Source of the DNA: Pedococcus dokdonensis
Lineage (GTDB): Bacteria > Actinomycetota > Actinomycetes > Actinomycetales > Dermatophilaceae
Assembly: GCF_900104525.1 (NCBI RefSeq)
Contig: NZ_LT629711.1
Location: forward strand, 62,001 to 126,000
DNA: 64,000 bases
Direction of reading: 5' to 3'
In this document: positions 19,698 through 36,381 of the stretch, in pieces
Layout: each line of letters starts with the position of its first letter
Position numbering within the stretch: the first letter of the stretch is position 1
Position numbers and translations under genes: made by a program
Notes under the pieces: generated by a model
The model's input: only the letters and a program-made list of their open reading frames with translations
Databases searched by the model: none
What the model was told of the DNA's origin: nothing

Positions 19698-20111
19698 CTA
19701 CCGCACGAGGTGGGCGTAGGGGTCCGGGCGCTCGGCCTCGCTGCGCAGGACGCAGAACTCGTTGCCCTCGGGGTCGGCCAGCGTCACCCAGCCGGTGCCC
19801 GGCCCGTGCTGGTCGCGCAGGTCGTGCACGAGGGTCGCGCCCGCCTCGAACAGCCGCTCGACCTCCTCGTTCATGGTGCGGTCCGTGGGCCAGAGGTCGA
19901 AGTGGATGCGGTTCTTCACCGTCCGGCCCTCCGGCACCTCGATGAACAGGATCCGCTGGCGGCCGTCGGGGGAGAAGATCATGCACTCCTCGTGGCCCGG
20001 GAGGTTGGGGTCGCGCGGGTCCTCGGAGAACCCGAGCACGCCGCACCACCAGACCGACTGGGCGTGCGCGTCTCGGGAGTCGATCGTGGTGTGCGAGATG
20101 CGTGACGTCAT
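19698..20111 (-). CDS. VOC/glyoxalase-fold protein
   Basis: The 137-residue protein shows the two betaalphabetabetabeta halves of the vicinal oxygen chelate fold: HTTIDSRDAHAQSVWWCGVLGF at the start, and a C-terminal WVTLADPEGNEFCVL carrying the usual metal-ligand Glu. It matches the actinobacterial Glyoxalase_6-like subgroup of unknown substrate. ATG 20111 is the first Met of the conserved region. It lies 110 bases downstream of the GNAT gene on the same strand. Confidence 0.82.
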   Translation of the reverse strand: MTSRISHTTIDSRDAHAQSVWWCGVLGFSEDPRDPNLPGHEECMIFSPDGRQRILFIEVPEGRTVKNRIHFDLWPTDRTMNEEVERLFEAGATLVHDLRDQHGPGTGWVTLADPEGNEFCVLRSEAERPDPYAHLVR

Positions 20112-20221
20112 GACGCCACTCTGTCGGGCCCGCCCTCCCGGGTGCCAGCGGGTTTTCCCAGGGGTCCGCACCCCTCGAGACGAGCTCGCCCACCGGGTCG
20201 GCTGAGCGGCGCGCGACCGCC

Positions 20222-21265
20222 TCAGCCCTGGGTGAGGTACGCGTACGACGAGTGCACGTCGAAGCCGAGCCGCCGGTAGAGCCTGATCGCCGTCGTGTTG
20301 TCGTGCTCGACCTGCAGGTGGACCAGGCTGGTGCCTTCCTCGCGCAGGCGCGCTGCGAGGGCGGCGGTGAGGTGGGCGGCCAGACCGCGTCCTCGGTATG
20401 CCGGGTCGGTCCAGACCGCGCCGAGCCCGGCCCAGCCTGCGCCGATCCCCATGCGCGCCACCGCGATCGGCGTCGTTCCTGCAGCGTCGGAGGCTCGCAG
20501 CCCGAGCTGTTGTGACAGGCCGCCGCCGGGCGTGATGCTGGCGAACAGCACGCGAGGGCTGTCGCGCAGCACCGCCTCGGTGGCGCCCTCCACCGTGGCT
20601 CGGGTCTTGCGGTACGCCTCCAGCCACGGGGGCGTGAGCTCCGAGGTGATGACCACGGCCGGGCCGCCGGGATCGGCGGCCGCGATGGTGTCGCGGTCCG
20701 CCGTGAGGTTGAGGGTGCGGCTGCCGACGCTGTATCCCCGAGCCAGCAGCAGCGCGCCCAGCGGGTCGTCGCCCGGGTCGAAACCCTCGGGCCCGGCGAG
20801 GGCGAACTTGGCTGGGAGTCCGCGCGCGGCATACCAGTCCTCGACGTCGTCGACGGCGTCGGACAGGGGCCGGCCAGGGCTCCCGACGGGCACCACCGAG
20901 TTGCCGCGCTGGGTGTAACCCTGGGATGCACGCAGCGCCCAGTCGCCGAGGGTCGACCGCTCGACCGCACCCCACGCCGGTGTCATCACCCGCTGCAGGT
21001 CCTCGATCGACACCGCGAGGTGGGCGGCGCCGCGTCGCGTCGGCCTGGGCGGCACCTCCTTGGCGGCCTCGACCCTGGCCAGCTCGACCGTCACCAGACC
21101 CCGGGAGGTCTCGACCTGCAGGGTGTCGTCGTCGCGGGCGACCAGGGTGCCGACTGCGTCGGTGAGCGTGGCGCCGGTGGCGGGGTCGGGTGCCGGCAGC
21201 CGCCACCGGACCACAACTCGGGACCCGAGGGGGAGGTTGCTGACGTCGGCCGACATGAGCCGCAT
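20222..21265 (-). CDS. GNAT N-acetyltransferase (cg3035/Rv0428c-like)
   Basis: The 347-residue product has an N-terminal small barrel-like domain (about 1-75, GSRVVVRWRLP and GTLVARDDDTL) and a C-terminal GNAT domain. The acetyl-CoA-binding loop is YRGRGLAAHLTAAL, followed by LQVEHDNTTAIRLYRRLGF near the C-terminus. This architecture recalls the actinobacterial cg3035/Rv0428c group; the acyl acceptor is unknown. ATG 21265 or 21256 may be used. It is transcribed divergently from the ferredoxin gene with only 12 bases between start codons. Confidence 0.82.
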   Translation of the reverse strand: MRLMSADVSNLPLGSRVVVRWRLPAPDPATGATLTDAVGTLVARDDDTLQVETSRGLVTVELARVEAAKEVPPRPTRRGAAHLAVSIEDLQRVMTPAWGAVERSTLGDWALRASQGYTQRGNSVVPVGSPGRPLSDAVDDVEDWYAARGLPAKFALAGPEGFDPGDDPLGALLLARGYSVGSRTLNLTADRDTIAAADPGGPAVVITSELTPPWLEAYRKTRATVEGATEAVLRDSPRVLFASITPGGGLSQQLGLRASDAAGTTPIAVARMGIGAGWAGLGAVWTDPAYRGRGLAAHLTAALAARLREEGTSLVHLQVEHDNTTAIRLYRRLGFDVHSSYAYLTQG

Positions 21266-21270
21266 AGTAT
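21265..21270 (+). promoter_or_regulatory. Putative leaderless -10 element (TAGTAT) of the ferredoxin gene
   Basis: TAGTAT is 7 bases before ATG 21278. There is no room for an untranslated leader because the divergent GNAT start codon occupies the same bases. Confidence 0.6.
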
Positions 21271-21277
21271 GTGCGCC

Positions 21278-21604
21278 ATGACGTACGTGATCGCCCAGCC
21301 TTGTGTGGACCTCAAGGACAAGGCCTGCATCGAGGAATGTCCGGTCGACTGCATCTACGAAGGCGAGCGGTCCCTCTACATCCACCCTGACGAGTGCGTC
21401 GACTGTGGTGCGTGCGAGCCGGTCTGCCCCGTCGAGGCGATCTACTACGAGGACGACACCCCCGAGCAGTGGGCCGACTACTACAAGGCCAACGTCGAGT
21501 TCTTCGACGACCTCGGCAGCCCTGGTGGCGCCGCCAAGCTCGGGATGATCCCCAAGGACCACCCGCTGATCGCCGACCTGCCCCCGCAGTCGCACGACGA
21601 GTGA
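21278..21604 (+). CDS. fdxA: 7Fe/8Fe-type ferredoxin
   Basis: A 108-residue ferredoxin of the actinobacterial FdxA/FdxC type. The N-terminal MTYVIAQPCVDLKDKACIEE and ECPVDCIYEG carry ligands of one cluster, and ECVDCGACEPVCPVEAI is a complete CxxCxxCxxxCP motif for a [4Fe-4S] cluster. The first motif has the spacing expected for a [3Fe-4S] centre. It probably donates electrons to cytochromes P450 or other reductases. The next gene is dapC, 13 bases downstream, the same order as M. tuberculosis fdxC-dapC. Confidence 0.95.
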   Translation: MTYVIAQPCVDLKDKACIEECPVDCIYEGERSLYIHPDECVDCGACEPVCPVEAIYYEDDTPEQWADYYKANVEFFDDLGSPGGAAKLGMIPKDHPLIADLPPQSHDE

Positions 21605-21617
21605 TCGGCGTGGTGGC

Positions 21618-22748
21618 GTGAGCGTTCGCGCCCTGCCCGACTTCCCCTGGGACTCGCTCGCTCCGGCCAAGGAGCGGGCGAGTGCTGTTCCCGGTGGCAT
21701 CGTCGACCTGTCGGTCGGCACTCCGGTCGACCCCACGCCCGCTGTCGTCCAAGAGGCGTTGCGGGCTGCCGCCGACGCCCCTGGCTACCCGTTGACCTAC
21801 GGCACTGCGCCCCTGCGCGAGGCCGTGGCGGCGTGGTTCGCCCGGCGCCGCGGGGTGCCCGCGCTCGATCCGGACGGCGTGATGCCGACGATCGGGTCCA
21901 AGGAGCTGGTGGCGTGGCTGCCCACCCTGCTGGGTCTCGGAGCCGGAGACGTCGTCGGGTTCCCGGGCATCGCCTACCCGACCTACGACGTGGGCGCCCG
22001 CCTCGCCGGCGCCAGGCCGCAGGTCGTCGACGGCCTCGCGGCGCTCGGCCCGCTGACCGCGGCCACGACCCCGAAGCTGTTGTGGCTCAACAGTCCCAGC
22101 AACCCGACCGGTCGCGTCCTGGGTGTGGACCACCTCGCCAAGGTCGTCGCGTGGGCCCGCCAGCACGGCGTGGTCGTCGCCAGCGACGAGTGCTACGCCG
22201 AGCTCGACTGGCGGCCCGAGAGCGCGCGCGACGGGGGCTCGCCCACGACGCCGAGCATCCTGGACCCGCGGGTCTGCGGCGACAGCCACGAGGGTCTGCT
22301 GGCGGTCTACTCCACGAGCAAGCAGTCCAACCTCGCGGGCTACCGAGCCGCCTTCGTCGCGGGCGACGTGGCCCTGGTCCGCCGGCTCCTCGAGGTCCGC
22401 AAGCACGCCGGGATGATCGTGCCCTGGCCGGTCCAGCAGGCGCTGACCGCCGCCCTCGGCGACGACGTCCACGTGGCCGAGCAGAAGGCGAGGTATGCCG
22501 CGCGGCGGGCCACGCTGCGCGCAGCCGTCGAAGGCTTCGGGCTCCGCGTCGACCACTCCGACGCCGGTCTCTACCTCTGGGCGACCAGGGGGGAGGACGC
22601 ATTGGCGACGGTCGATGCGTTGGCCGCCCGCGGCATACTCGTGGCGCCCGGCAGCTTCTACGGCGAAGCCGGCCGGCAGCACGTCCGCATCGCCCTCACC
22701 GCCACCGACGAGCGCATCGCCACGGCGGCCGAACGGCTGGCGGGCTGA
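21618..22748 (+). CDS. dapC: N-succinyldiaminopimelate aminotransferase DapC
   Basis: A 376-residue class I/II PLP aminotransferase. The PLP lysine is in STSKQSNLAGYR, with the upstream NSPSNPTGR and DECYAELDW motifs that hold the cofactor. Position after the ferredoxin gene, as in M. tuberculosis Rv1177-Rv1178, supports DapC. The enzyme converts N-succinyl-2-amino-6-ketopimelate to N-succinyl-LL-DAP in lysine and peptidoglycan precursor synthesis, acting between DapD and DapE, both encoded in this window. GTG 21618 is 13 bases past the ferredoxin stop. Confidence 0.92.
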   Translation: MSVRALPDFPWDSLAPAKERASAVPGGIVDLSVGTPVDPTPAVVQEALRAAADAPGYPLTYGTAPLREAVAAWFARRRGVPALDPDGVMPTIGSKELVAWLPTLLGLGAGDVVGFPGIAYPTYDVGARLAGARPQVVDGLAALGPLTAATTPKLLWLNSPSNPTGRVLGVDHLAKVVAWARQHGVVVASDECYAELDWRPESARDGGSPTTPSILDPRVCGDSHEGLLAVYSTSKQSNLAGYRAAFVAGDVALVRRLLEVRKHAGMIVPWPVQQALTAALGDDVHVAEQKARYAARRATLRAAVEGFGLRVDHSDAGLYLWATRGEDALATVDALAARGILVAPGSFYGEAGRQHVRIALTATDERIATAAERLAG

Positions 22749-22757
22749 CCGCCTCGA

Positions 22758-22788
22758 TTGTCTGAGCCCGCCACCCGTGGGGTAGCGT
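22758..22788 (+). promoter_or_regulatory. Candidate gltA promoter
   Basis: TTGTCT (22758-22763), a 19-base spacer and TAGCGT (22783-22788). It would leave a leader of about 65 bases containing partially self-complementary sequence before the GGAGGA ribosome-binding site. Confidence 0.45.
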
Positions 22789-22859
22789 CGCAGTGCGCGG
22801 GAAGCGCCTGGGCAGCACACGGTTCTGGGCGCCCGCTTCACGTGGAGGACGGATCACAC

Positions 22860-24155
<1,296 letters not shown>

Positions 24156-24161
24156 CCCGCC

Positions 24162-24243
24162 CCCTGCACGAACCTTTGCTAGCAAAGGAAACCGGTTGGT
24201 GGACAGGTTGCAACCTGTCCACCAACCGGTTTCTTGTGCTGGG
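24162..24243 (+). repeat. 82-bp double-palindrome repeat, copy 1
   Basis: It consists of CCTTTGCTAGCAAAGG (16-bp palindrome, 24173-24188) followed by a 44-base palindrome with perfect 22-bp arms and no loop (24189-24210 with 24211-24232). It sits 6 bases past the gltA stop, between the convergent gltA and winged-helix/nuclease genes. The same 82-base unit recurs inverted at 25336-25417 and directly at 34974-35055. Likely roles are a bidirectional terminator or a REP-like mobile repeat. Confidence 0.93.
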
Positions 24244-24263
24244 TGGACCCGGATGCCGCCACC

Positions 24264-25265
24264 TCAGCGGTGTCGCCCCCGACGAGCTCTCGCCCGGGCA
24301 GCCTCGATCCGCTTCCTGACCAGGTGCAGGTCGTCGAGCTCGCTCCAGGTGAATCGGGCGAACTCCACCGTCGCCTGCATCCGCACGTCCTCCTCACGGC
24401 GCTTCTCGGCCGCCAGGTTCTCGCGGCGAGCCATGGCAGAGCCGGCCGGGCCCGTGGCGCTGGCCAGCGAGTACTTCGCGAGGCCGTCGAACTCCACGAC
24501 CACCGGCTCGTCGTCCAGCCCGAAGTCGCCGCGGTAGCCCCGGGAGCCGGCCAGAGGCACCTGAGGCGTGAAGGAGTAGCCCAGAGTCCGCATCGCGTGG
24601 GCCAGGCGGGTCTCCCCGGGCGACTCGTGTCGCCCGTCGACGTGGGCCAGGAGCTGCCTGACAACGGGTATGCCGGGGTGGTGGGTGTGCGCCGCCACGG
24701 CCCGTTCGAGCTCCTCCCGACCGACCAGGCCGCGATGCAGCGCGGCATCCGCGGCGATCAGGCTGTCCATGGGCACCCGACAGGTCGCGTCGTCCGGCGG
24801 GTAGAGGCCGACCTGGACGGCAGCGTGGGCCGGCGTCACCGTCTGGTATCCACCGGACCCGGCGACGGGGTCGGCCTCGACGCGCGGATGGATGACGGCC
24901 GACCTGCGGTGTCGGGTGTGGTCGTTGGCGGTGCGACACAGGTGGGCTGTGGTGAGGTCGGCCTGCCACATCGGCAGCTCGTGGAGCACCAGTGCCGACT
25001 GGTGGCTGGCGACGACCCGGCCGTCGAAGGACTTGAGGAGGGCGGTCACCAGCAGCCGATGCCGGCGGCGTGCCTCGTCGAACGTGTCGTCACCCTCCCA
25101 GGGCGCACGTTCCGAATTCGGCGACCGCACGGCATACCAGCCCCTGATCACCCGGAAGAGGGTCCCTGCGCGGACGCGGGCGCGCATGCCAGCGGGGTCG
25201 ATGCCGAGCGTCAGGGCTGTCGCGGTGGAGATGAGGTGATCATCGGCGAGGTCGTGCAAGTCCAT
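24264..25265 (-). CDS. AbiEi-like winged-helix protein with DUF559/Vsr-like nuclease-fold C-terminus
   Basis: The 333-residue product starts with a winged-helix segment (about 1-50, LISTATALTLGIDPAGMRA and GTLFRVIRGWYAV) like the AbiEi antitoxin domain of type IV toxin-antitoxin systems. The C-terminal third has YRGDFGLDDEPVVVEFDG (about 265-285), an Asp-x(n)-Glu-x-Asp arrangement as in DUF559/Vsr PD-(D/E)XK folds, then a charged helical tail. Many actinobacteria carry such genes without an AbiEii toxin, and none is present here. It is bracketed by inverted copies of an 82-bp palindromic repeat, which is unusual. The function is unknown; catalytic competence of the nuclease-like part is inference. 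Confidence 0.75.
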   Translation of the reverse strand: MDLHDLADDHLISTATALTLGIDPAGMRARVRAGTLFRVIRGWYAVRSPNSERAPWEGDDTFDEARRRHRLLVTALLKSFDGRVVASHQSALVLHELPMWQADLTTAHLCRTANDHTRHRRSAVIHPRVEADPVAGSGGYQTVTPAHAAVQVGLYPPDDATCRVPMDSLIAADAALHRGLVGREELERAVAAHTHHPGIPVVRQLLAHVDGRHESPGETRLAHAMRTLGYSFTPQVPLAGSRGYRGDFGLDDEPVVVEFDGLAKYSLASATGPAGSAMARRENLAAEKRREEDVRMQATVEFARFTWSELDDLHLVRKRIEAARARARRGRHR

Positions 25266-25335
25266 GCGCACCAAGGGTGCCGGACTCGTCGACGACGCGT
25301 GGCGACCCTGTGGACAACCTTGGCTCGGGGGCTGT

Positions 25336-25417
25336 CCCAGCACAGGAAACCGCGTGGTGGACAGGTTGCAACCTGTCCACCAACCGGTTTCCTTTGCTAG
25401 CAAAGGTTCGTGCAGGG
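25336..25417 (-). repeat. 82-bp double-palindrome repeat, copy 2 (inverted)
   Basis: The same unit as at 24162-24243 but on the opposite strand, so the TGCACGAACC ends of both copies face away from the gene between them. The 44-base palindrome is centred at 25368/25369 and has two mismatches in its left arm (GC for GT). It is 70 bases upstream of the nuclease-like gene and 19 bases past the next gene's stop. Confidence 0.93.
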
Positions 25418-25435
25418 GGGGGCAGGGGGCAGGGG

Positions 25436-26326
25436 TCAGGGGGCGAATGTGACCGTCACGGTGTTGGCCTTGCCGCCCTTGGCGTCGTGCCACTGCCACC
25501 CGGAGGAGTTGCGGGTGCGGGTCCACTCGCGCGAGCCGACGCGCACCGAGGTGGCGCCGTGCTGGGAGGCCTTGGCCACGGCATACGCGCCGGCGCTCCA
25601 GGCGGCCCGCTCCGAACCGGCGCTGACGGTCACGGTGCGGCCGCTGACGGTGGCCTTGACGCCGAGCTCCTTGGCCAGCGCGGCCTTCAGGGCCGCGGGG
25701 TCGCCCTCGCCGGCCGCGGGGTCGTCGAGGCGGCAACCCAGGCCCTCGGGGGAGTGCCCGCTCAGGGTGGAGGCGAGCAGCCGCCCCTCCTGCTCGTGGT
25801 CGGCGTACGCCTCGGGGTAGGCGCTCTTCTGCACCTTCTGCGCGATCTCGGTGATCCGCATGTCCTCGTAGCCGTCGATCTTCACGAGCGCGTCGTAGAA
25901 CTTGTTGGTCGCGTAGACGGGGTCGAGGATCTGCTCGACGGTGCCCCAGCCCTGGCTCGGGCGCTGCTGGAACAGCCCCACCGAGTCGCGGTCGCCGTAC
26001 TTGAGGTTGCGCAGCTTGGATTCCTGGATCGCCGTGGCGATGGCGATGGTGGCGGCCCGGGCGGGCAGCCCCCGCTTCTCGGCGATCGCCTCGATGGTCG
26101 CCGCGTATGCCGTCTGGCTCGGGTCGAAGTCGACGCTCGATCCCAGCGCGGTGGCCTGGCACCGGGGCCCGCCGAAGTTGGTGACCAGCCCGCGGGCACC
26201 GACGAACCCCGCCACGACCAGCCCACCGGCGAGCAGGACCAGCACCAGCCGGGTGACGAGCTTGCTGGTCCGCGACGGCCGGTGCTGCTCCGCCAGGACG
26301 ACCCCGCCGCGCCTAGTCGTTGGCAT
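25436..26326 (-). CDS. Membrane-anchored lysozyme/transglycosylase-like protein
   Basis: A 296-residue protein with a single N-terminal membrane helix (about 24-45) and an external domain. The segment [17 protein letters not shown], with [19 protein letters not shown] downstream, resembles the catalytic Glu region of soluble lytic transglycosylase/lysozyme folds, as seen in actinobacterial proteins often mislabelled heavy metal transporter. The C-terminal half ([15 protein letters not shown]) may be a binding domain. Its start overlaps the end of dapD by 14 bases, so it is expressed with dapD. A role in cell-wall remodelling is inference. Confidence 0.7.
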
Positions 26327-27242
26327 GCAGGGCCGAGTTCAGGACGATGCCGTGACCGTCGCGGGCCCGCGCCTCGACGGTGCCGGTGACGGAGTTGCGG
26401 AGGAAGAGCAGGTTGGACTGGCCGGAGAGCTCGCGCGCCTTGACCACCCGGCCGTCGCTGAGCGTGACCTTGGTGCCGGCGGTGAGGTAGAGGCCGGCCT
26501 CGACCACGCAGTCGTCGCCGAGCGCGATGCCCAGACCCGACTCGGCGCCGAGCAGGCAGCGCTCGCCGATGCTGACGCGCTCGGTGCCACCACCGGACAG
26601 CGTGCCCATCGTGGAGGCACCGCCACCGATGTCGGAGCCGTCGCCGACGACGACGCCCTGGCTGATCCGCCCCTCGACCATCGAGTGGCCGAGCGTGCCG
26701 GCGTTGTAGTTGACGAACCCCTCGTGCATGACCGTCGTGCCGGGCGCCAGGTGGGCGCCGAGCCGGACCCGGTCGGCGTCGCCGATCCGCACCCCGGCGG
26801 GCACCACGTAGTCCGTCATCCGCGGGAACTTGTCGACCCCGAGCACGTTGACCGTGCCGCGCATGCGGAGTCGTGCGCGGGTGAGCTCGAAGCCCTCGAC
26901 GGCACACGGGCCCGCGGTGGTCCAGACGACGTTGGTGAGCACGCCGAACAGGCCGTCGAGGTTGACGGTGTTGGGCTCGACCAGGCAGTGCGACAGCAGG
27001 TGAAGGCGCAGGTAGGCGTCGGACGGGTCGGCCGGAGCGGCGTCGAGGTCGACCTCGACATCGACGATGACGCGGCGCACGCGCCGCAGCTCGTCAGCAC
27101 CGACCAGGGCCCGCAGCTCCTCGGGGGCGCTCGCGCCGGCAGGGCGCTGGCCCAGGGCCGGCTGGGGGTACCAGGTGTCCAGCACGACACCGTCCGTGGT
27201 CGTGGTGGCCAGCCCGAAGCCCCATGCGGTGCGCTCACTCAT
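26313..27242 (-). CDS. dapD: Tetrahydrodipicolinate N-succinyltransferase DapD
   Basis: The 309-residue protein is the actinobacterial-type DapD. It has an N-terminal alpha/beta domain and a left-handed beta-helix of hexapeptide repeats from about residue 150 ([20 protein letters not shown], then the [13 protein letters not shown] and [14 protein letters not shown] loops). It uses succinyl-CoA to open tetrahydrodipicolinate in the succinylase branch of DAP synthesis. It is divergent from dapE, the next-but-one enzyme of the pathway, with 110 bases between starts. A -10-like TAGGCT lies 6 bases before ATG 27242. Confidence 0.95.
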
Positions 27243-27248
27243 GCCGCA

Positions 27249-27254
27249 AGCCTA
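27249..27254 (-). promoter_or_regulatory. Putative leaderless -10 element (TAGGCT) of dapD
   Basis: On the minus strand TAGGCT is 6 bases before ATG 27242, with no ribosome-binding site between. Confidence 0.55.
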
Positions 27255-27352
27255 AGGGAGCAGAGCAGGTGCCTCGGACCGGTCCGGGGACCGGTCGGGA
27301 CGGTCCTCCCCGGCGTCTCCGGGTGACCGGGTCGGCTGCGGGAGGGGTCGAT

Positions 27353-28465
27353 ATGGTGGCGAACATGGCGAACCACACCAGCCCGACCGCAGCGGCGACA
27401 CCGGCCCTCGACCTGTCCGCCGACATCGTCACCCTCACCGCCGCGCTCTGCGACATCGAGTCGGTGAGCCTCGACGAAGCCACCGTCTGCGATGCGATCG
27501 AGGCCGCGTTGGCCCCGCTCGGGCACCTGGCCGTCACGCGGATCGGCAACACCCTGGTCGCGCGCACCGACCTCGGTCGCGACGAGCGGGTCGTCCTCGC
27601 CGGCCACATCGACACGGTGCCGCTGACCAAGGACCCCGCCAACCTGCCCACCCGCCGGGAGGGCGACGACCTCGTCGGCCGGGGCACCGTCGACATGAAG
27701 GGCGGGGTGGCCGTCCAGCTGAAGGCGGCCCTGGTGACCGAGCCGAGCCGCGACCTCACCTTCGTCTTCTACGAGGGCGAGGAGATCGACAGCCGGCACA
27801 ACGGCCTGCTGCACGTGCAGCAGCAGCGGCCCGAGCTGATCGACGACGCCGACTTCGCGGTGCTGCTCGAGCCGACCGCGAGCCAGGTCGAGGGTGGCTG
27901 CAAGGGCACCCTGCGCGTCGACGTGATCGTCCGGGGCGTCGCCGCCCACTCGGCCCGCCCCTGGAACGGCCGCAACGCCATCCACGACGCCAACGCCGTC
28001 CTCACCCGGCTGACCGCCTACGAGACCTCGACGATCACCGTCGACGGGCTGGACTACCACGAAGCCATGAACGCCACCGGCATCCGCGGGGGCATCGCCG
28101 GCAACGTCATCCCGGACGAGTGCGTGGTCACGGTCAACTACCGCTACGCGCCCGACAAGTCGGCCGACGAGGCCCTGCTGCACGTCAAGGACCTCTTCGA
28201 GGGCTTCGACGTCGTCTGCCTCGACAACGCCCCGGGGGCGCGACCGGGGCTCGACCTGCCGGCTGCCAAGGCGTTCGTCGACGCGCTCGCCGTGCCGGTC
28301 ATCGCCAAGGAGGGCTGGACCGACGTCGCGCGGTTCTCCGAGATGGGCATCGCCGCCGTCAACTTCGGGCCGGGTGACCCCAACCTCGCGCACCACGACG
28401 ACGAGCGGGTGCCGGTCAGCCAGCTGCAGTCCGCCGAGACCGCCCTCCTGCGCTGGCTGGCCTGA
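27353..28465 (+). CDS. dapE: Succinyl-diaminopimelate desuccinylase DapE
   Basis: The 370-residue M20-family metallohydrolase removes succinate from N-succinyl-LL-DAP to give LL-DAP. Visible motifs are LAGHIDTVP (first metal ligand), GRGTVDMKGGVA (bridging Asp), YEGEEID (catalytic Glu and ligand), and a C-terminal AHHDDERV (last ligand). ATG 27353 has GGGAGG 7 bases upstream; ATG 27365 is an alternative. With dapC and dapD in the same window, the succinylase route to meso-DAP is well represented. Confidence 0.94.
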   Translation: MVANMANHTSPTAAATPALDLSADIVTLTAALCDIESVSLDEATVCDAIEAALAPLGHLAVTRIGNTLVARTDLGRDERVVLAGHIDTVPLTKDPANLPTRREGDDLVGRGTVDMKGGVAVQLKAALVTEPSRDLTFVFYEGEEIDSRHNGLLHVQQQRPELIDDADFAVLLEPTASQVEGGCKGTLRVDVIVRGVAAHSARPWNGRNAIHDANAVLTRLTAYETSTITVDGLDYHEAMNATGIRGGIAGNVIPDECVVTVNYRYAPDKSADEALLHVKDLFEGFDVVCLDNAPGARPGLDLPAAKAFVDALAVPVIAKEGWTDVARFSEMGIAAVNFGPGDPNLAHHDDERVPVSQLQSAETALLRWLA

Positions 28466-28597
28466 CGCCGAACCGTCCGACGATGGGGGTATGCCGCCGG
28501 GTCGCCGTCCGGGGCGCCGACCGCGTCGCCGTCCGCGTCGCCGTCCGGGGCAGCGTCCGCGTTGCCGGTGCCGGTGCTGTCGCGATCGCCGAGAGCG

Positions 28598-29950
28598 TCA
28601 GCCGGTCGGCTGCTCGCCGAACCCCAGGGGCTCCCGGCTCACCAGGTAGGTCGCCCAGTTCAGCTTCGTCACGGTCCCGTCCGCGGCGTAGGTGACCCGC
28701 AGCGGTTCGCCCCGCTCCCGCCCCGAGATGGTGCGGAAGGTGGTGTCGTCGATCCGCTCGAAGACCGACGGCGCGCGGTCCGCCGGCGCCGAGTCGGCCC
28801 GGGCCTCGAGCCGGCCCTCGCGCACCGAGAAGGTGAAGCCGGACCCCTCGGAGAACCACCTCCCGAGCAGCGGCACCAGGTTGTCGGGCACGGACGTGCC
28901 CGGCCGCCACGGTTCGGCCTCGGCGGGGTCGTGCTCGAGGACGATCTCACCGAGGGCGATCGAGAGCTCGGCGGGGTCGGGCGTGGACGAGCTGTTCATC
29001 AGCGCGATGCCACCGGTGCCGCTCTCCCGGTGGGTGAAGACGCCCGTCACCTGACCGGGCATGCCGCCGGTGTGCCCCACCCAGGTCCGCTTGCCGGGTG
29101 ACCGCATCAGGAAGAAGCCGAGCCCCATCGCACCGCTCCAGCTCTCGGTGTCGAGCACCAGCTGCGGCTGGCACATCTCCTCGAAGGTGTCGGGCGACAG
29201 GATCGAAGGATCCGGGTCGGCCACGAAGCCCGACCACGTCGCGAGGTCGGTCACGGTGCTGGCGAGCGCGCCGCACGGGCCCATCGCACGCAGGTCCACG
29301 ACCGGCTCCACGCGGGGCACGTCGTGGAACGGCTGGACGTGGTAGCCGATCGCCCGCGGGCCGTCATCGAACCCGACCGTGGTGCGGGTCATGCCGAGTG
29401 GCTGCAGGATCCGCGTGCGCAGGACCTCCTCCCAGGGGCGTCCCTCGAGACGCTCGACGAGCTGGCCCAGCACGGCATACACGATGTTGGAGTAGTGGAA
29501 GTGGTCGTGCGGCCGACCCACCCGCTCGATGGCGTTGAAGTCGCTCATCAGGGTCGTGGCGTCCGGTTGCCGGAGGGTCTCCCAGATGTCCCCGAGCGGT
29601 TCACGGGCCAGGCCGGTGGCGTGCGAGAGGGCCTGGCGCACGGTGGCCCGGTGGGTCACGCCCGGCAGGTGCTGGTCGAGGGTGTCGTCGAGGTCGAGCC
29701 GGCCCTCGTCGCGCAGTGCCATCACCAGCACGGCGGTGAAGCTCTTGGTGTTGGAGGCGATGAGGAACTGGTCGTCCGGGCCGGGCACCCGCGGTGCCGC
29801 GACGTCGGCCGTGCCGACCCCGTCGCACCAGAGGAGGTCTCCACGGCGCACCACGGCTGCGGCGAGACCGGGCACGCGCCCGGTGCGCTGGCGGTCGATG
29901 CCGAGGTCGCGGAGTCGTCGGACCGTCGTGTCCTGCAGGGTGGTGTCCAC
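28598..29950 (-). CDS. Serine beta-lactamase-family hydrolase (class C/PBP-like)
   Basis: The 450-residue protein has the penicillin-recognising fold: SxxK as SNTK (near residue 70), YxN as YSN (about 155), and HTGG (about 290), then a small C-terminal beta domain. No signal peptide is visible, so it is probably cytoplasmic. This family includes esterases, D-aminopeptidases and carboxypeptidases, and the substrate is open. The start is set at GTG 29950 because TAGGGT lies 7 bases upstream; ATG 29968 would put that hexamer inside the gene. The 132 bases between dapE and this gene contain GTCGCCGTCCG-type low-complexity repeats. Confidence 0.82.
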   Translation of the reverse strand: MDTTLQDTTVRRLRDLGIDRQRTGRVPGLAAAVVRRGDLLWCDGVGTADVAAPRVPGPDDQFLIASNTKSFTAVLVMALRDEGRLDLDDTLDQHLPGVTHRATVRQALSHATGLAREPLGDIWETLRQPDATTLMSDFNAIERVGRPHDHFHYSNIVYAVLGQLVERLEGRPWEEVLRTRILQPLGMTRTTVGFDDGPRAIGYHVQPFHDVPRVEPVVDLRAMGPCGALASTVTDLATWSGFVADPDPSILSPDTFEEMCQPQLVLDTESWSGAMGLGFFLMRSPGKRTWVGHTGGMPGQVTGVFTHRESGTGGIALMNSSSTPDPAELSIALGEIVLEHDPAEAEPWRPGTSVPDNLVPLLGRWFSEGSGFTFSVREGRLEARADSAPADRAPSVFERIDDTTFRTISGRERGEPLRVTYAADGTVTKLNWATYLVSREPLGFGEQPTG

Positions 29951-29957
29951 GTCGTCG

Positions 29958-29963
29958 ACCCTA
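29958..29963 (-). promoter_or_regulatory. Putative leaderless -10 element (TAGGGT) of the serine hydrolase gene
   Basis: TAGGGT on the minus strand is 7 bases before GTG 29950. It faces the LOG gene's own element at 30003, so two divergent starts share 65 bases. Confidence 0.5.
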
Positions 29964-30002
29964 GCCATCGCGATGCCGCGGGGGACGGCGCACCGGCTCG
30001 CG

Positions 30003-30008
30003 TAGGTT
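30003..30008 (+). promoter_or_regulatory. Putative leaderless -10 element (TAGGTT) of the LOG-family gene
   Basis: TAGGTT is 7 bases before GTG 30016, with no Shine-Dalgarno sequence. Confidence 0.5.
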
Positions 30009-30015
30009 GTGGTGC

Positions 30016-30828
30016 GTGAGCGACGAGACGCAGGCAGACGACGCTCGGACGGCCGGTGCCACCGAGCGCGACGAGGACTACCCGGGCTTCGACTACCACA
30101 CCGGACCGGTGACGTTGCGGGGGTCGCGGGTGCCCGGCACCACCACCGACCAGCGGCTGCTCGACAGCCGCGGTCCGAGCGACTGGCTGCACACCGACCC
30201 GTGGCGGGTGATGCGCATCCAGAGCGAGTTCGTCGAGGGGTTCGGCGCGTTGGCCGAGCTCGGCCCGGCCGTCAGCGTGTTCGGCTCGGCCCGCACCAAG
30301 CCCGGCACCCCCTTCTACGAGCTCGCCACCCACGTGGGTCGTCGCCTCGTGGAGGAGGGGTATGCCGTCATCACCGGCGGCGGTCCCGGCGCCATGGAGG
30401 CGGCCAACAAGGGAGCCCGCGAGGCGGGCGGCGCCAGCGTCGGGCTGGGCATCGAGCTGCCCTTCGAGCAGGGCCTCAACGAGCACGTGAACCTCGGTGT
30501 GAACTTCCGCTACTTCTTCGCCCGCAAGACGATGTTCGTCAAGTACGCCCAGGGCTTCATCGTCCTGCCCGGTGGGTTCGGCACGCTGGACGAGCTGTTC
30601 GAGGCCGTGACGCTGGTGCAGACCCAGAAGGTCACCTCCTTCCCGATCGTGCTGATGGGCACCGACTACTGGGGCGGCCTGTTCGACTGGCTGCGCGGCA
30701 CCGTCCTCGAGGCTGGCACGGTCAGCCAGAAGGACGTCGACCTGCTGCACCTCACCGACGACGTCGACGAGGCGGTCCTGCTGGTGACCGTGGCCGAGGA
30801 CCACGTCCCGCCGAAGCACCCCGAGTAG
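30016..30828 (+). CDS. LOG-family (TIGR00730) Rossmann-fold phosphoribohydrolase-like protein
   Basis: The 270-residue protein carries the two LOG signatures, GGGPGAMEAANKGAREAGG and LPGGFGTLDELFEAVTLVQ, with a catalytic Arg/Glu arrangement. Family members release the base from cytokinin or nucleoside 5'-monophosphates. In M. tuberculosis Rv1205, near dapE, is of this family. GTG 30016 is chosen over a TTG/ATG-like start nine bases upstream because of the TAGGTT element. It has a longer N-terminus than minimal LOG proteins (about 70 extra residues). Confidence 0.88.
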   Translation: MSDETQADDARTAGATERDEDYPGFDYHTGPVTLRGSRVPGTTTDQRLLDSRGPSDWLHTDPWRVMRIQSEFVEGFGALAELGPAVSVFGSARTKPGTPFYELATHVGRRLVEEGYAVITGGGPGAMEAANKGAREAGGASVGLGIELPFEQGLNEHVNLGVNFRYFFARKTMFVKYAQGFIVLPGGFGTLDELFEAVTLVQTQKVTSFPIVLMGTDYWGGLFDWLRGTVLEAGTVSQKDVDLLHLTDDVDEAVLLVTVAEDHVPPKHPE

Positions 30829-30874
30829 CCAGACCCGGGGAGTTCGGGGGATGGACGGGACCGGCGTGGCCACC

Positions 30875-30880
30875 GATGAT
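30875..30880 (+). promoter_or_regulatory. Putative leaderless -10 element (GATGAT) of the 81-residue protein
   Basis: GATGAT is 6 bases before GTG 30887. Confidence 0.35.
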
Positions 30881-30886
30881 GGGTAC

Positions 30887-31132
30887 GTGACCATCTCGCC
30901 GCTGCCGCGTCATGGTGACGTCATCGTCGGCCGGGACGTCACCGGTCGCACGCTGCGCATCTCCGGCCACCCGGAGAGCGGACGGGTCGTCCTGTCGATC
31001 TGGCAGGACACCGTGTGCAGGGCCACCCTGCGGCTCGCCCCCGAGGACGTCCCCGACTTCGTCGCCATGCTGACGAGGACCGCGATCGCGAACGCGGATG
31101 ACCAGACCCACGAGCTGGGAACGGCGGGCTGA
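30887..31132 (+). CDS. Small hypothetical protein
   Basis: An 81-residue protein that I do not recognise. It begins VTISPLPRHGDVIVGRDVTGR, is predicted to be mostly beta-strand followed by a helix (VPDFVAMLTRTAIANA), and has no signal peptide or membrane segment. GTG 30887 is preferred over ATG 30851 because of the upstream GATGAT. It lies between the LOG gene and the DivIVA-domain gene on the same strand. Codon use is strongly third-position GC, supporting a real gene. Confidence 0.65.
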   Translation: MTISPLPRHGDVIVGRDVTGRTLRISGHPESGRVVLSIWQDTVCRATLRLAPEDVPDFVAMLTRTAIANADDQTHELGTAG

Positions 31133-31157
31133 GTAGGTCGCTCGCAGCAGTTCGTGC

Positions 31158-31163
31158 GACGAT
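31158..31163 (+). promoter_or_regulatory. Putative leaderless -10 element (GACGAT) of the DivIVA-domain gene
   Basis: GACGAT is 6 bases before GTG 31170; there is no ribosome-binding site. Confidence 0.35.
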
Positions 31164-31169
31164 CGGCCG

Positions 31170-31448
31170 GTGATCTGGGTCTTCTTCATCGCGATCGGCG
31201 TCCTCCTCGTCGGAGGTTTCGCCGCGCTCGTGGTGGGCCGGGTGGGTTACGACCCGCTCGCCGAGCCCACCACCACCCAGGCCGACCCGGTGCTCACCGA
31301 GGAGTTCGGGGCGGGGGAGATCGCCGCCGTCCGGTTCGACACCGCCCTGCGTGGCTACCGGATGGACCAGGTGGACGCGGTGCTCGACCAGCTGCAGCAC
31401 CGGATCGAGGAGCTCGAGGCCCGGCTCGCAGCGGACCACCGTCGCTGA
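31170..31448 (+). CDS. Membrane protein with DivIVA domain
   Basis: This 92-residue protein has one N-terminal membrane helix (about 3-24) and a C-terminal DivIVA segment, RFDTALRGYRMDQVDAVLDQL, followed by a short coiled coil. It resembles M. tuberculosis Rv1209, which lies next to tag (Rv1210) as here. Such proteins may recruit other factors to curved or polar membrane; the role is not established. Confidence 0.85.
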   Translation: MIWVFFIAIGVLLVGGFAALVVGRVGYDPLAEPTTTQADPVLTEEFGAGEIAAVRFDTALRGYRMDQVDAVLDQLQHRIEELEARLAADHRR

Positions 31449-31451
31449 CCC

Positions 31452-31907
31452 ATGGCCGAGTTCCACCTCACCCGCCGCTCCACCGCGCCCCCCGCGGCGG
31501 TGTGGGACGTCGTGACCGACTTCGCGGCATACGGTGACTGGATGCCGGCCACCCGCATGCGGGTCGATGCCGGTGGGCCCCGCCCGGGCTGGGGGTTCGC
31601 GGGGATCAGCGGGCTGGGACGCGTCGGTTTCTCCGACTCGATGCTGGTGTCGGTCTGGGAGCCGCCGGGGCCGGACGGGCGCGGGGCGTTCCGGGTCGTG
31701 AAGACCGGCCGGCTGCTGAGTGGCTGGGCCGAGGTGACCGTCGAACCCGACGGGACCGGCACCCGTCTGGACTGGCATGAGGACGTCGTGGTGCGGCCGC
31801 TGCCCTTCAAGCGGTGGTTCGCGCCACTGCTCGATCGCGCCAACGACTGGCTCTACGGTCGGGCGGTCGACGCCATGCTGGCCCACGCCGAAGAGCGCAG
31901 CCGGTGA
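31452..31907 (+). CDS. SRPBCC/START-like ligand-binding protein
   Basis: A 151-residue SRPBCC protein: FHLTRRSTAPPAAVWDVVTDFAAYGDWMP opens the helix-grip fold, a WHEDVVV strand follows, and a long C-terminal helix ends the domain. It binds an unknown hydrophobic ligand. It starts 3 bases after the DivIVA-domain gene and overlaps tag by 4 bases, so the three form a coupled unit. Confidence 0.82.
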   Translation: MAEFHLTRRSTAPPAAVWDVVTDFAAYGDWMPATRMRVDAGGPRPGWGFAGISGLGRVGFSDSMLVSVWEPPGPDGRGAFRVVKTGRLLSGWAEVTVEPDGTGTRLDWHEDVVVRPLPFKRWFAPLLDRANDWLYGRAVDAMLAHAEERSR

Positions 31908-32488
31908 GCAGCGGGCTCGTCGTCGGCGCGGACGGCCTCAGCCGGTGCGCCTGGGCCGGATCGGCGCCGGACTACCTCGACTACCACGACACCGAGTGGG
32001 GCGTGCCCGTGCACGGTGAGCAGGCCCTCTACGAGCGGCTCACCCTCGAGGCATTCCAGTCCGGGCTCGCGTGGATCACCATCCTGCGCAAGCGGGAGGG
32101 GTTCCGGGCGGCGTTCGCCGGCTTCGACCCCGAGGTGGTGGCGCGGTTCGACGACCGTGACCGCGACCGCCTCATGGCCGACGCCGGCATCGTCCGCAAC
32201 CGGCTCAAGATCGACGCCGCGATCCGGAACGCCGCCGCGGTGCTGGCCCTGCGCGAGGCCGGCGGGCTCGACGCGCTGATCTGGTCGCACGCGCCGAGCG
32301 ACCACGTGCCGCCGCGCACCACCGGCGACTTCCGCGCCACCTCACCGGAGTCCGTCGCCCTGGCCAAGGCCCTCAAGAAGGCCGGCTTCGTCTTCGTCGG
32401 ACCGACCACGATGTATGCCGCGATGCAGGCCTGCGGTCTCGTCGACGACCACCTCGCGGGCTGCCACCGGGCGGGCGGAGCCCGATGA
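31904..32488 (+). CDS. tag: DNA-3-methyladenine glycosylase I
   Basis: The 194-residue protein is Tag, which excises 3-methyladenine in base excision repair. It contains CAWAGSAPDYLDYHDTEWG with the conserved Cys and Trp, then ERLTLEAFQSGLAWITILRKR. The zinc-binding set is completed by His residues and the C-terminal CHR. GTG 31904 overlaps the preceding stop (GTGA). Its end overlaps the first glycosyltransferase gene by 4 bases, giving a tightly packed run. Confidence 0.95.
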   Translation: MSSGLVVGADGLSRCAWAGSAPDYLDYHDTEWGVPVHGEQALYERLTLEAFQSGLAWITILRKREGFRAAFAGFDPEVVARFDDRDRDRLMADAGIVRNRLKIDAAIRNAAAVLALREAGGLDALIWSHAPSDHVPPRTTGDFRATSPESVALAKALKKAGFVFVGPTTMYAAMQACGLVDDHLAGCHRAGGAR

Positions 32489-33678
32489 TGCGCAGCCTCG
32501 GTGCGAGGGTGGCGGTGGCCTACCTCGCGCTGCGGGCGGTGTCGGCGGTGCTGCTGGTGCTGGCCAGCCGCGACCAGGTCGTCATGCCCGACTGGACCGG
32601 GCCCACGGTCGAGCCGATCGACATGAGCGTGCTCTGGGACGGCAGCTGGTACCGCCACATCGCCGAGCACGGCTACCCGCACGACCTGCCGGTCGACCCC
32701 GGCAGCGGCCGGGTCTCCCAGAACGCCTGGGCCTTCTACCCCCTCTTCCCGCTGCTGTCCAAGCTGCTCATGCAGCTGACCGGGCTCGGCTTCCCGGTGG
32801 TCGCATCGGCCCTCTCCCTGGTCTGCGGGCTCGGTGCCGCGCTGATCATGGGACGGCTGCTGGCCGACCGGGTCGGCGACCGCCTGGCGCTCGCCACCGT
32901 CGCCGCGTGGGGTGCCTTCCCGGCGGCCGTCTCGCTCCAGATCGCCTACACCGAGGCGATCGCGATGCTCGTGCTCTGCGCACTGCTGTGGGCGCTGACC
33001 CGCCGCAGCTGGGTCGCGGTCGGTGCGCTGGCCGTGCTCCTCGGGGTCACCCGGCCGATCGCCGTGCCGGTGGCGGTGGTCGTCGCCGTGGCGCTGTTCG
33101 CGCGCTGGCGCCGCCGCGGCGCCGAACCCATCGGGCCGGGCGAGTACACCGCGGGGGCCGTGGCCCTGGCCGGCTCGGCCCTCGGGGCGGTCGCCTGGCC
33201 GCTGATCGCGTGGCGGGTCACCGGTGTGCGCAGCGCCTACACCGACACCATGGCGTCGTGGCGGGTCGACGGCGCGATCACGCCGTTCAAGCCGTGGCTC
33301 GGCATGTCGCAATGGACCTTCCGCGAGTTCGAGGGCGGCGCCGTCTACGGGCCGGTCGCGCTCGCGGCCCTCGCCACGACGATCGTCGTCCTCACCTGCG
33401 GGCCCTGGGCGACCGCGCTGGGAGTGGAGCTGCGGGCCTGGTGCCTGGCCTACCCGGCATACCTCGCCGTTGTCCTCGACCCGTTCACGAGCATCTTCCG
33501 CTACGCCCTCCCGCTCTTCCCCCTGTTCGCCGTGCTGCTGGGCGGTCTCTCCAGCGACCGGGGCAGGAGCTGGTTGTGGGCCCGGGCCGGCACGCTGATC
33601 GCGATCGGCGTGGCCGGGCAGGCGCTGTGGATCTGGAAGCTGCTCGTCTACCACCCTCCCTCGGACTACCCGCCGTGA
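32485..33678 (+). CDS. GT-C fold (PIG-V-like) membrane glycosyltransferase, copy 1
   Basis: A 397-residue polytopic membrane protein with about nine hydrophobic helices. The large external loop after helix 1 contains WDGSWYRHIAEHGYP and a following AWAFYPLFPLL, the pattern of PIG-V/GT-C mannosyltransferases with the Asp of WD as catalytic base. It probably uses polyprenyl-phosphate mannose as donor to extend a cell-envelope lipid. It is paralogous to the next gene. The start overlaps the tag stop (ATGA). The acceptor is unknown. Confidence 0.78.
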   Translation: MMRSLGARVAVAYLALRAVSAVLLVLASRDQVVMPDWTGPTVEPIDMSVLWDGSWYRHIAEHGYPHDLPVDPGSGRVSQNAWAFYPLFPLLSKLLMQLTGLGFPVVASALSLVCGLGAALIMGRLLADRVGDRLALATVAAWGAFPAAVSLQIAYTEAIAMLVLCALLWALTRRSWVAVGALAVLLGVTRPIAVPVAVVVAVALFARWRRRGAEPIGPGEYTAGAVALAGSALGAVAWPLIAWRVTGVRSAYTDTMASWRVDGAITPFKPWLGMSQWTFREFEGGAVYGPVALAALATTIVVLTCGPWATALGVELRAWCLAYPAYLAVVLDPFTSIFRYALPLFPLFAVLLGGLSSDRGRSWLWARAGTLIAIGVAGQALWIWKLLVYHPPSDYPP

Positions 33679-34958
33679 CCGTCACCGTGCTCTCCGGGCT
33701 GCGCTCGGTGGTGACCTCCCAGGGGCGCAGTGCCCTGGGAGGGTGGGCGCTGCGCCGTCCCGTCGTCTTCCTGCTGCTCTGGTATGCCGCGACGCGCGTC
33801 GTCGCGCTGCTCGCCATGGGGGTGGCGGCGACGTGGTTCCAGACCCCGGCCGGCGTGGGCCACCTCGACCCGACGGTCGGCGACATCCTCGGCAACTGGG
33901 ACACCATCTGGTACCGCAGGGTCGCCACGCAGGGCTACCCCGTGCCACTGCCCGCCGACCCCGACACCGGGCTGCTCACCTACAGCGCGTGGGCGTTCTA
34001 CCCCGCCTTCCCCTTCCTCGTCCGTGGCCTGATGGCCACGGGTGTGTCCTTCGAGGTCGCCGGGGTGGCGCTCAACCTCCTCCTCGGCGCGGTCTGCACG
34101 CTGCTGGTGTGGCGCTGCTTCGGCTTCGCGCTGCACGCCTCGCCGCAGCCGGCCCGCGAACGCCTCGCCCTGGTGACCGCCGCTCTCTGGTGTCTCTACC
34201 CGGCGACCGGGATCCTCGTGATGCCCTACACCGAGGCGCTCGCGGGGGTGCTGATCGCGGGGTCGCTGCTCCTGCTCATGCAACGGCGCTACGCCTGGGT
34301 CGCGATCCTGGTGCTGGTGCTGGGGTTCACCCGCTCGGCCGCGCCGGGTATCGCGTGCGCCGCCATCGCCCACCTCGTGCTGCGTTGGCGTGACGACCGG
34401 GCGGCGGGAGTCAAGCCGATCGGTGGCCAGTGGGTGACGGCCGGCCTCATGCTGGTGTCGACCGGGGTCTCCTCGATCGCCTGGCCGGTGGTCGTCGGCA
34501 TCACCAGCGGGCTGCCTCGGGCGTTCTTCGACGTGCAGGCCGCCTGGGGCCAGAAGCCCGAGTCCGGGCCCTTCGTGCTCTGGCTCGCGTGGGCCTGGGA
34601 TGCCCACGGCATCGTCGGCGTCACCATCCTGGTCGGGCTGGTCGCCACCTACATCGCGCTCATCCTGGGGCGGCACGGCCGGTGGCTCGCCCTCGAGCTG
34701 CGGGTCTGGGCGCTGGCCTACCCGCTCTACCTGCTGGCCGTCGTGCGGCCGATCACGAGCATGTGGCGGTTCCTGCTGCTCGACTTCCCGCTCGCGGCGG
34801 TGGTCGCGTCGGTGGCCATGCGCACCTCCACCGGAGCGCGGGTGGTGGCGCACTGGCGACGGCGGGTCGGCGTGGTCGCGCTGGTGCTGCTCGTGGGGAT
34901 GTTCTGGTTCACCTGCACCCTGCTGACCTACACGCCGTGGGCCTCGGCACCACCGTGA
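33675..34958 (+). CDS. GT-C fold (PIG-V-like) membrane glycosyltransferase, copy 2
   Basis: A 427-residue paralogue of the preceding protein, sharing WDTIWYRRVATQGYP, AWAFYPAFPFLVRGL and the VMPYTEALAG helix. GTG 33675 overlaps the previous stop, so the two are translated together. Tandem duplicated GT-C enzymes may act as a pair or on successive residues. It ends before an 82-bp palindromic repeat. Confidence 0.78.
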   Translation: MTVTVLSGLRSVVTSQGRSALGGWALRRPVVFLLLWYAATRVVALLAMGVAATWFQTPAGVGHLDPTVGDILGNWDTIWYRRVATQGYPVPLPADPDTGLLTYSAWAFYPAFPFLVRGLMATGVSFEVAGVALNLLLGAVCTLLVWRCFGFALHASPQPARERLALVTAALWCLYPATGILVMPYTEALAGVLIAGSLLLLMQRRYAWVAILVLVLGFTRSAAPGIACAAIAHLVLRWRDDRAAGVKPIGGQWVTAGLMLVSTGVSSIAWPVVVGITSGLPRAFFDVQAAWGQKPESGPFVLWLAWAWDAHGIVGVTILVGLVATYIALILGRHGRWLALELRVWALAYPLYLLAVVRPITSMWRFLLLDFPLAAVVASVAMRTSTGARVVAHWRRRVGVVALVLLVGMFWFTCTLLTYTPWASAPP

Positions 34959-34973
34959 CCCGCCGCTGCCGAG

Positions 34974-35055
34974 CCCTGCACGAACCTTTGCTAGCAGAGG
35001 AAACCGGGTGAGGGACAGGTTGCAACCTGTCCCTCACCCGGTTTCCTGTGCTGGG
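34974..35055 (+). repeat. 82-bp double-palindrome repeat, copy 3
   Basis: The same unit and orientation as copy 1. The 44-base palindrome (35001-35022 with 35023-35044) is perfect even though its arms differ from copy 1 at several places: each change in the left arm is matched in the right. It lies between the convergent glycosyltransferase and enoyl-CoA hydratase genes. The short palindrome has one mismatch. Confidence 0.93.
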
Positions 35056-35078
35056 ACGCGCTGTCTACGCCGCCCGGG

Positions 35079-35948
35079 TCACTCGCCGGTGAAGACCGGC
35101 TTCTCCTTGGCGAGGAAGGCCGCGACAGCCGCTCGGTGGTCGGAGGTCCCACCGGTCAAGGTCATGTAGTCGCCCTCGGTGGCCAGGGACTCCGACAAAC
35201 CGTGGCCCGCGCTGAACGCCACCGCGCGGCGGATCGACCCGTAGGCGAGGGTCGGGCCGGCGGCGAGCCGGGTGGCCAGGTCCCGCACGGTGGCGTCGAG
35301 GTCCTCGGCGGCCACCACCTGGGTCACCAGGCCGAGGGAGAGGCACTCGTCGGCGGGCACCGTGCGCGGCAGCAGGAGCAGCTCCTTGGCCCGGGCCGGG
35401 CCGACGAACCGCTGCAGCGACCACGAGGTGCCCGAGTCGCAGGAGAGGGCGATCCCGGCGAACGCGAGGTTGAACCCCGCGGTGTCGACCATCACCCGGA
35501 AGTCGGCGGCCAGCGCGAAGCCCGCGCCCGCCCCGGCCGCGACACCGTTGAGCGCGGCGACCACGGGCTTGTTCATCGTCGCGAGCAGCTCGACCACCGG
35601 GTTGTAGTGCCGCGCCACCGTCTCCCAGAGCGAGGGGTCGTCGGCCTGCAGGAGGGTGATGTGCTCACGCAGGTCCTGGCCCACGCAGAACGCCCGCCCG
35701 GTGCCGGTCAGCACCACGCAGCGGACCGCCGGGTCCTGCGCGACCTCGGTCAGTGCGCTGACCAGGGCGTCCTTGGTGGCGGTGTCGAGCGAGTTCATCG
35801 CGTCCGGACGGTTCAGGCGCACCGTGGCCACCGCGCCGTCCCGCTCGACCAGGACGGGGACGCCCGGCTGGGTGGTCGTGGCGGTGGTGGTGGCAGTGGT
35901 GGTGGCAGTGGTCGGGTCGGCGTTCTCGTCGGCGGTGGTGTCGCTCAT
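35079..35948 (-). CDS. Enoyl-CoA hydratase/isomerase family protein
   Basis: The 289-residue crotonase-fold protein has an N-terminal Thr/Ala low-complexity tail (TATTTATTT) and then the hydratase core. RAFCVGQDLREH forms the first oxyanion segment, GVAAGAGAGFALAADFRV the second, and LSCDSGTSWSLQRFVG follows. Where classical hydratases have a Glu near GLD, this protein has a Ser-Cys-Asp-Ser segment like PaaG-type phenylacetate isomerases, so the exact reaction is uncertain. ATG 35948 has CAGGAT 6 bases upstream. It is transcribed alone. Confidence 0.85.
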   Translation of the reverse strand: MSDTTADENADPTTATTTATTTATTTQPGVPVLVERDGAVATVRLNRPDAMNSLDTATKDALVSALTEVAQDPAVRCVVLTGTGRAFCVGQDLREHITLLQADDPSLWETVARHYNPVVELLATMNKPVVAALNGVAAGAGAGFALAADFRVMVDTAGFNLAFAGIALSCDSGTSWSLQRFVGPARAKELLLLPRTVPADECLSLGLVTQVVAAEDLDATVRDLATRLAAGPTLAYGSIRRAVAFSAGHGLSESLATEGDYMTLTGGTSDHRAAVAAFLAKEKPVFTGE

Positions 35949-35954
35949 GGCGCC

Positions 35955-36374: not shown

Positions 36375-36381
36375 CGGGTCC

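Follow-up and report, generated by a model that had tools for sequence, protein, structure and literature searches.

Within a 64,000-nucleotide stretch of the Pedococcus dokdonensis genome (contig NZ_LT629711.1, positions 62,001 to 126,000; hereafter, the window), we found a short segment, from about 24157 to 25422, that appears to be a one-gene mobile element with inverted palindromic ends and, as the only gene recognized in it, one for a predicted AbiEi-Vsr nuclease. Judging from sequence comparisons, we give this reading a probability of about 0.62. We favor it because the gene and the repeats occur together with differing repeats, at differing sites and with dispersed cognate copies. Together, the gene and its repeats resemble a type of very small mobile element that has not been described before.

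An earlier sequence-only reading of this DNA had described two 82-bp copies of one repeat bracketing an AbiEi-like gene in opposite orientation, and a third copy lying alone; all three were recovered at the positions listed in Table 1. The flanking arms form an 87-nucleotide inverted repeat that is 95% complementary, with the arms 1092 nucleotides apart, and in both flanking copies the TGCACGAACC end faces outward and the GTGCTGGG end faces the gene. The core GACAGGTTGCAACCTGTC, with up to three mismatches allowed, occurred three times in the window, compared with 0.02 times expected from shuffles. The description of the repeat as a double palindrome also proved real: each copy consists of a long hairpin centered on GGTTGCAACC and, next to it, the small palindrome CCTTTGCTAGCAAAGG (with a single mismatch in the third copy). 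Folding of the three window copies as single-stranded DNA gave z-scores of -9.65, -10.14 and -7.25 relative to shuffles. Searching positions 20000 to 40000 against Rfam at gathering thresholds returned no match.

Table 1. Features of the putative unit and its surroundings (positions in the window)
Feature	Position	Strand	Remarks
gltA, citrate synthase (named by eye)	22860..24155	+	unit lies directly past its 3' end
palindromic terminal repeat, 82 bp, 3' side of gene	24162..24243	+	hairpin z-score -9.65; outer end TGCACGAACC toward gltA, inner end GTGCTGGG toward gene
outer small palindrome CCTTTGCTAGCAAAGG	24173..24188		equals G000:C1:86173
palindrome GGACAGGTTGCAACCTGTCC at the center of the long hairpin	24201..24220		
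gene, 333 aa, AbiEi-antitoxin-like part fused to Vsr/I-Bth0305I-like nuclease domain	24264..25265	-	by predicted structure
TTGTCCACAGG box	25307..25317	-	lies between the terminal repeat and the start codon, about 50 bp before the latter
palindromic terminal repeat, 82 bp, 5' side of gene	25336..25417	-	inverted relative to 24162..24243
neighboring host gene	25436..26326	-	several genomes of the genus likewise have it beside the gltA site
solo 82-bp copy	34974..35055	+	flanked by two convergent genes according to a home-made gene caller

The link between gene and repeat, which had been suspected from the sequence alone, is supported by its recurrence around homologous genes. Flanks were scored by local alignment of the left flank against the right one in reverse complement, with a limit of 45. 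Among 249 sliding 1-kb intervals of the window, the gene's own was the single one above this limit, and the next best reached 37. The 333-aa protein had 407 homologues at E <= 1e-5, and a search of relatives gave a match in 45 of 58 genomes. We scored 43 homologues, comprising three genes from the window's own genome (G000; 3.94 Mb in one contig) and the top 40 other matches listed in the relatives search; 42 come from the family of the window, and the remaining one, L158 in genome G207, belongs to a different family in the order. G017:C18 and G017:C12 (contig ends), G069:C210 and G025:C22:505899 were left out, and L128 and L131, which are cut by contig ends, were retained. Flanking inverted repeats scored above 45 in 27 of the 43 homologues (26 of 42 without the window's own gene), with a maximum of 40 for shuffles of this set (50 per locus). 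The repeats differ between clades of homologues and, by eye, many are palindromic. A second set consisted of the PF04480 (DUF559) genes of the genus, for which we tested the 30 matches, out of 33, that had a locus. Nineteen of these 30 loci passed, two of them in the window's own genome (L231 and L239). The two sets have four genes in common, 26 of the 30 DUF559 genes lie outside the first set, and 42 of the 69 distinct genes pass. Tandem copies of a repeat unit were seen in the arms of two DUF559 genes, L231 (G000, C1:2091640) and L223 (G146, C22:83989).

Such scores might reflect chance or a general property of gene ends in high-GC DNA, given that 16 of the 43 homologues stayed below the limit, that the largest control in the same loci reached 44 and that one DUF559 locus (L225), which itself scored 65, gave shuffle scores of up to 46. 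However, no control exceeded 45 among 74 equal intervals in the same loci, 248 other window intervals or 30 same-geometry intervals at the DUF559 loci (largest 33). These controls already contradict the chance explanation, and we give it almost no credence.

The repeat is dispersed through the genome of P. dokdonensis. The genome-wide search that the sequence-only reading had proposed located the repeat at 26 places, rather than at hundreds of gene ends, with two copies at the gene and 24 elsewhere. Six copies match all 82 query bases; greater length, higher symmetry or stronger divergence sets the remaining 20 apart. Two paralogues of the gene in this genome (35% and 28% identity) lie more than 40 kb from every copy, and both bear different inverted repeats of their own (L074, L075). 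Cognate repeats are dispersed in other genomes as well. G138 carries the repeat of its 37%-identity homologue at nine places, two flanking the gene in inverted orientation and seven solo. A repeat related to that of G138 stands on both sides of the homologue in G147, which has two solo copies in addition. The repeat of G207 flanks a 33%-identity homologue, again inverted, and occupies at least 41 distinct places (overlapping rows merged; 40 of 47 candidates scored), at least 39 of which are solo; 17 places of the same repeat were found in a congener, G189. The 21 G207 places that were read out had sharp ends. Gene-flanking and solo copies were therefore present in four genomes, with three repeat types (G000; G138 and G147; G207), and by a simple estimate the random chance of two copies straddling the named gene is about 1e-6 each in G000, G138 and G207. 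The suggestion that the gene had been dropped into a repeat-rich site fared less well; it leaves the unrelated repeats around homologues elsewhere unexplained. The exact repeat pattern was present in 1 of 186 genomes of the family, a result that is misleading because relatives use diverged or unrelated repeats. In the wider collection of genome contigs, the 18-base core occurred in 12 records, and two of the seven inspected, Nostocoides jenkinsii (L112) and Phycicoccus sp. Soil802 (L116), share the repeat type; their 8-kb stretches contained no match to the protein.

The placement of the 26 copies bears on two other explanations. According to a home-made gene caller, of which at least one row (L069) is visibly wrong, 17 copies lie in convergent gaps, nine in tandem gaps and none in divergent gaps, and convergent gaps make up 10 of the 63 gaps in the window. 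This bias, as well as the strong hairpins of the copies, would suit mobile bidirectional terminators resembling repetitive extragenic palindromic (REP) sequences, which another enzyme spreads and for which the nuclease gene is a passenger or a beneficiary of insulation. G140 and G144, which have this repeat type but no close homologue, point in the same direction. However, clades of homologues have unrelated repeats of their own, likewise dispersed in the three types examined. A passenger would not match a differing repeat each time. In addition, no Y1/HUH transposase (PF01797) was detected in 11 genomes of the genus, with matches in 5 of 14 controls; other enzymes were not searched for. On balance, we consider spreading by another enzyme unlikely.

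A still weaker candidate, in our view, is that the repeats are operators, bound by an AbiEi-like regulator that controls its own gene and a regulon marked by the solo copies, with the nuclease acting in defense. PADLOC AbiEi models do match the 333-aa protein, and passages of PMC7319586 describe binding of AbiEi and Rv2827c to 23-bp inverted repeats in their own promoters; in the same passages, Rv1044 did not bind its own promoter. Nevertheless, the absence of copies from divergent gaps and their abundance between convergent genes argue against operators, as does the position of the second arm downstream of the gene. Moreover, no toxin partner was recognized by eye among the immediate neighbors of the gene at 11 loci, where no toxin-family search was made.

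The nine close homologues (the window's gene and L122 to L129, at least 48% identity; neighbors named by eye) are spread over four sites, two of which recur. These sites are gltA (G000 and G145), citrate synthase 2/serC (G142, G143, G138, a second copy in G145, and G100, where the serC side is present and the other side is cut off), prs (G139) and nagA/cydA (G165). Two of the four sites follow citrate synthase paralogues, namely gltA and citrate synthase 2 (L099, L122, L123 to L126), and G145 has one unit after each paralogue. A free-standing homing-type endonuclease could in principle cut the allelic empty site at the 3' end of citrate synthase, whereupon the unit would be copied by homologous recombination and the palindromes would be co-converted ends or targets. 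The units beside prs and nagA/cydA speak against such an origin, and so do the inverted terminal repeats and dispersed solo repeats, which to our knowledge are not features of homing endonuclease genes. We find homing improbable, to much the same degree as terminators spread by another enzyme.

Occupancy of the gltA site varies, and the comparison there that the sequence-only reading had proposed showed that the unit is not fixed in all relatives. Downstream of gltA, two of 11 genomes of the genus have the unit of the window, four have another DUF559-like gene and five have neither, meaning that no such gene lies within the roughly 400 bases read. The other DUF559-like gene (in G144, G139, G143 and G142) has another palindrome on both sides, and a hairpin is present in G146, one of the five sites without such a gene. 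The palindromes at the gltA sites of L100, L102, L106 and L108, which belong to the same four genomes, contain AGTGAGCGC or a variant. For the solo copies, 21 of 24 sites could be aligned with one or two relatives (G144, G140), with some alignments being poor. By eye, the relative had the same repeat type at five aligned sites (one of them a fragment) and an unrelated palindrome at six (L165, L171, L172, L175, L176 and L195), as if several element families shared such intergenic positions as points of insertion. One of these palindromes resembles the repeat of the G144 nuclease gene L249, and another resembles the repeat of L148.

For the encoded protein, structure prediction suggests a fusion of an AbiEi-antitoxin-like DNA-binding part with a Vsr/I-Bth0305I-like nuclease. 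In the predicted structure, the AbiEi-like part covers residues 1 to 210 approximately, with a winged helix-turn-helix and a nucleotidyltransferase-like region, and the nuclease domain covers residues 213 to 330 approximately; for the nuclease domain the prediction, a Vsr-like fold, is confident. Residues E218, D247, E258, D260, K264, E287 and K288 are invariant across 51 sequences and are likely catalytic. Among the Foldseek matches listed, only 6y8q_A reached E <= 0.001. Chains of the Toxoplasma gondii mitoribosome were interspersed among the Vsr and I-Bth0305I rows, and a module of human FASTKD4 and other RAP-like rows ranked lower. A profile sequence search of the PDB gave two insignificant matches (E 0.81 and 0.99); what links the protein to known folds is the predicted structure. 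Pfam returned AbiEi_4 below the cut-off and one weak spurious family for the 333-aa protein, and no family for five overlapping mechanical open reading frames of the unit. NCBIfam has no family for the protein, and plasmid and phage collections contained no match at E 1e-5. Among the matches listed, such genes are annotated as an antitoxin, as a very-short-patch-repair endonuclease or not at all.

Two features recur among the units. Of the 18 arms of the nine close units, 16 have both an outer CTxTGCTAGC-type motif and an inner direct copy of it; the spacing of these motifs is 60 bp from start to start in 13 of the 16 arms and differs in three. For comparison, according to passages of PMC3943268, I-Bth0305I dimerizes on a target of nearly 60 bp. 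The second feature is the TTGTCCACAGG box, which we take to resemble the actinobacterial DnaA box and which could alternatively be a promoter element. The only exact occurrence of TTGTCCACA in the window is the one inside this box. Allowing up to two mismatches, TTGTCCACAGG was found in 32 of the 43 homologues between 150 bp upstream of the matched start and 30 bp inside it, compared with 4 of 43 in an equal downstream stretch in either orientation. All nine close homologues have it exactly, 50 to 54 bp upstream.

We infer that the nuclease itself does the moving, and a putative mechanism can be outlined. The AbiEi part would bind the half-sites repeated within the unit's palindrome, in line with the promoter binding of AbiEi and Rv2827c noted above, and the Vsr nuclease would cut or nick this palindrome or a comparable target in 3' intergenic DNA. 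Repair of the break, probably in the course of replication, would then insert a copy of either the complete unit or one palindrome. Speculative parts of this scheme are the hairpin form and the coupling to replication.

The best reading of the unit by analogy is that it would function like a REPtron or TIRtron with an unrelated nuclease. As in REPtrons, which pair REP sequences with RAYT (TnpA-REP) proteins, a gene lies between inverted palindromes, the same palindromes are dispersed (G000, G138 and G207), many copies occupy convergent gaps and the repeat sequences are element specific. In contrast to REPtrons, the unit has a predicted AbiEi-Vsr nuclease, no Y1/HUH protein was found in 11 genomes of the genus, the conserved GTAG or CGTC end is absent from the 26 aligned own copies, and the repeat units are about 75 to 98 bp long, compared with 20 to 40 bp for REP sequences. 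The parallel with REP-RAYT pairs drawn by the sequence-only reading is thus apt as an analogy and fails as a statement of membership. TIRtrons (TIRYT), described in passages of PMC3733652 as Y1 genes with long, partly self-complementary terminal inverted repeats, share with the present units these long repeats, some of them palindromic and some with dispersed families. Their enzyme, however, is a tyrosine HUH transposase, whereas the one here is an unrelated nuclease. The EDxHD/Vsr-like I-Bth0305I has the nuclease fold predicted here, but the present unit lies outside an intron and has terminal repeats, solo copies and more than one site. AbiEi antitoxins and Rv2827c share the AbiEi part, which here is fused to a nuclease, and no AbiEii/MenT toxin gene was recognized by eye alongside. 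Like the miniature inverted-repeat transposable elements of insertion sequences, the solo copies are short, non-autonomous, palindromic and akin to the termini of a larger unit; unlike those, no DDE transposase appeared among the Pfam matches of the gene and the five overlapping reading frames, and no target-site duplication was seen. Among the papers listed in searches of the open-licence PubMed Central literature, no title or abstract opening connected DUF559 or AbiEi nucleases with palindromic repeats. As the enzyme that defines REPtrons and TIRtrons was not found and no description appeared in this literature, we regard the enzyme and the assembly as categorically new; the overall strategy of a gene with dispersed cognate palindromes is already known.

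Several points weigh against a one-gene mobile element. The limit of 45 was set after the first results had been seen, and 11 of the 30 DUF559 genes fail it, in addition to the 16 homologues mentioned above. One flanking copy in G147 has diverged, and its orientation is ambiguous. In agreement with the sequence-only reading, no target-site duplication was seen by eye at the gene or at the solo copies in G000, nor was any visible at the 21 G207 places. The alignments with relatives yielded no clean empty site; none can be defined because the intergenic DNA is too diverged. Y1 was the only transposase type searched for genome-wide. The best homologue found in G140 and G144, which both have this repeat type, is only 37% identical, and the repeat therefore either persists without the gene or has another mover. 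The central stem shows weak covariation (162 of 234 paired cells, compared with a shuffle mean of 152 and a maximum of 168), an effect too small to serve as proof of a function as RNA, and it was rejected as such.

A broader proposal, on which we are evenly divided, is that the unit represents an undescribed and widespread actinobacterial class. In this class, a Vsr/EDxHD-type nuclease with an AbiEi-like or other fused DNA-binding part would recognize its own palindrome and mobilize the gene and solo palindromes to 3' intergenic sites, the upstream DnaA-box-like motif would possibly provide coupling to replication, and a large number of orphan genes labeled "DUF559" or "AbiEi family antitoxin domain" would encode its enzymes. 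If this is true, genes now labeled as antitoxin or very-short-patch-repair endonuclease, or not labeled, would gain a function, that of driving mobile units bounded by palindromes, and one source of the REP-like repeats seen where RAYT is absent would become testable. Vsr-fold nucleases would likewise count among the enzymes that disperse non-autonomous DNA, and their specificity, for their own palindrome, could be assayed directly.

Apart from the unit, one short word stood out in the window. The similar word GCCATACC is not over-used, with one match, whereas GGCATACC looks like an over-used signal word, with 20 occurrences on both strands compared with 0.65 expected from dinucleotide shuffles; its places include 4228-4235, 24667-24674 and 63540-63547.
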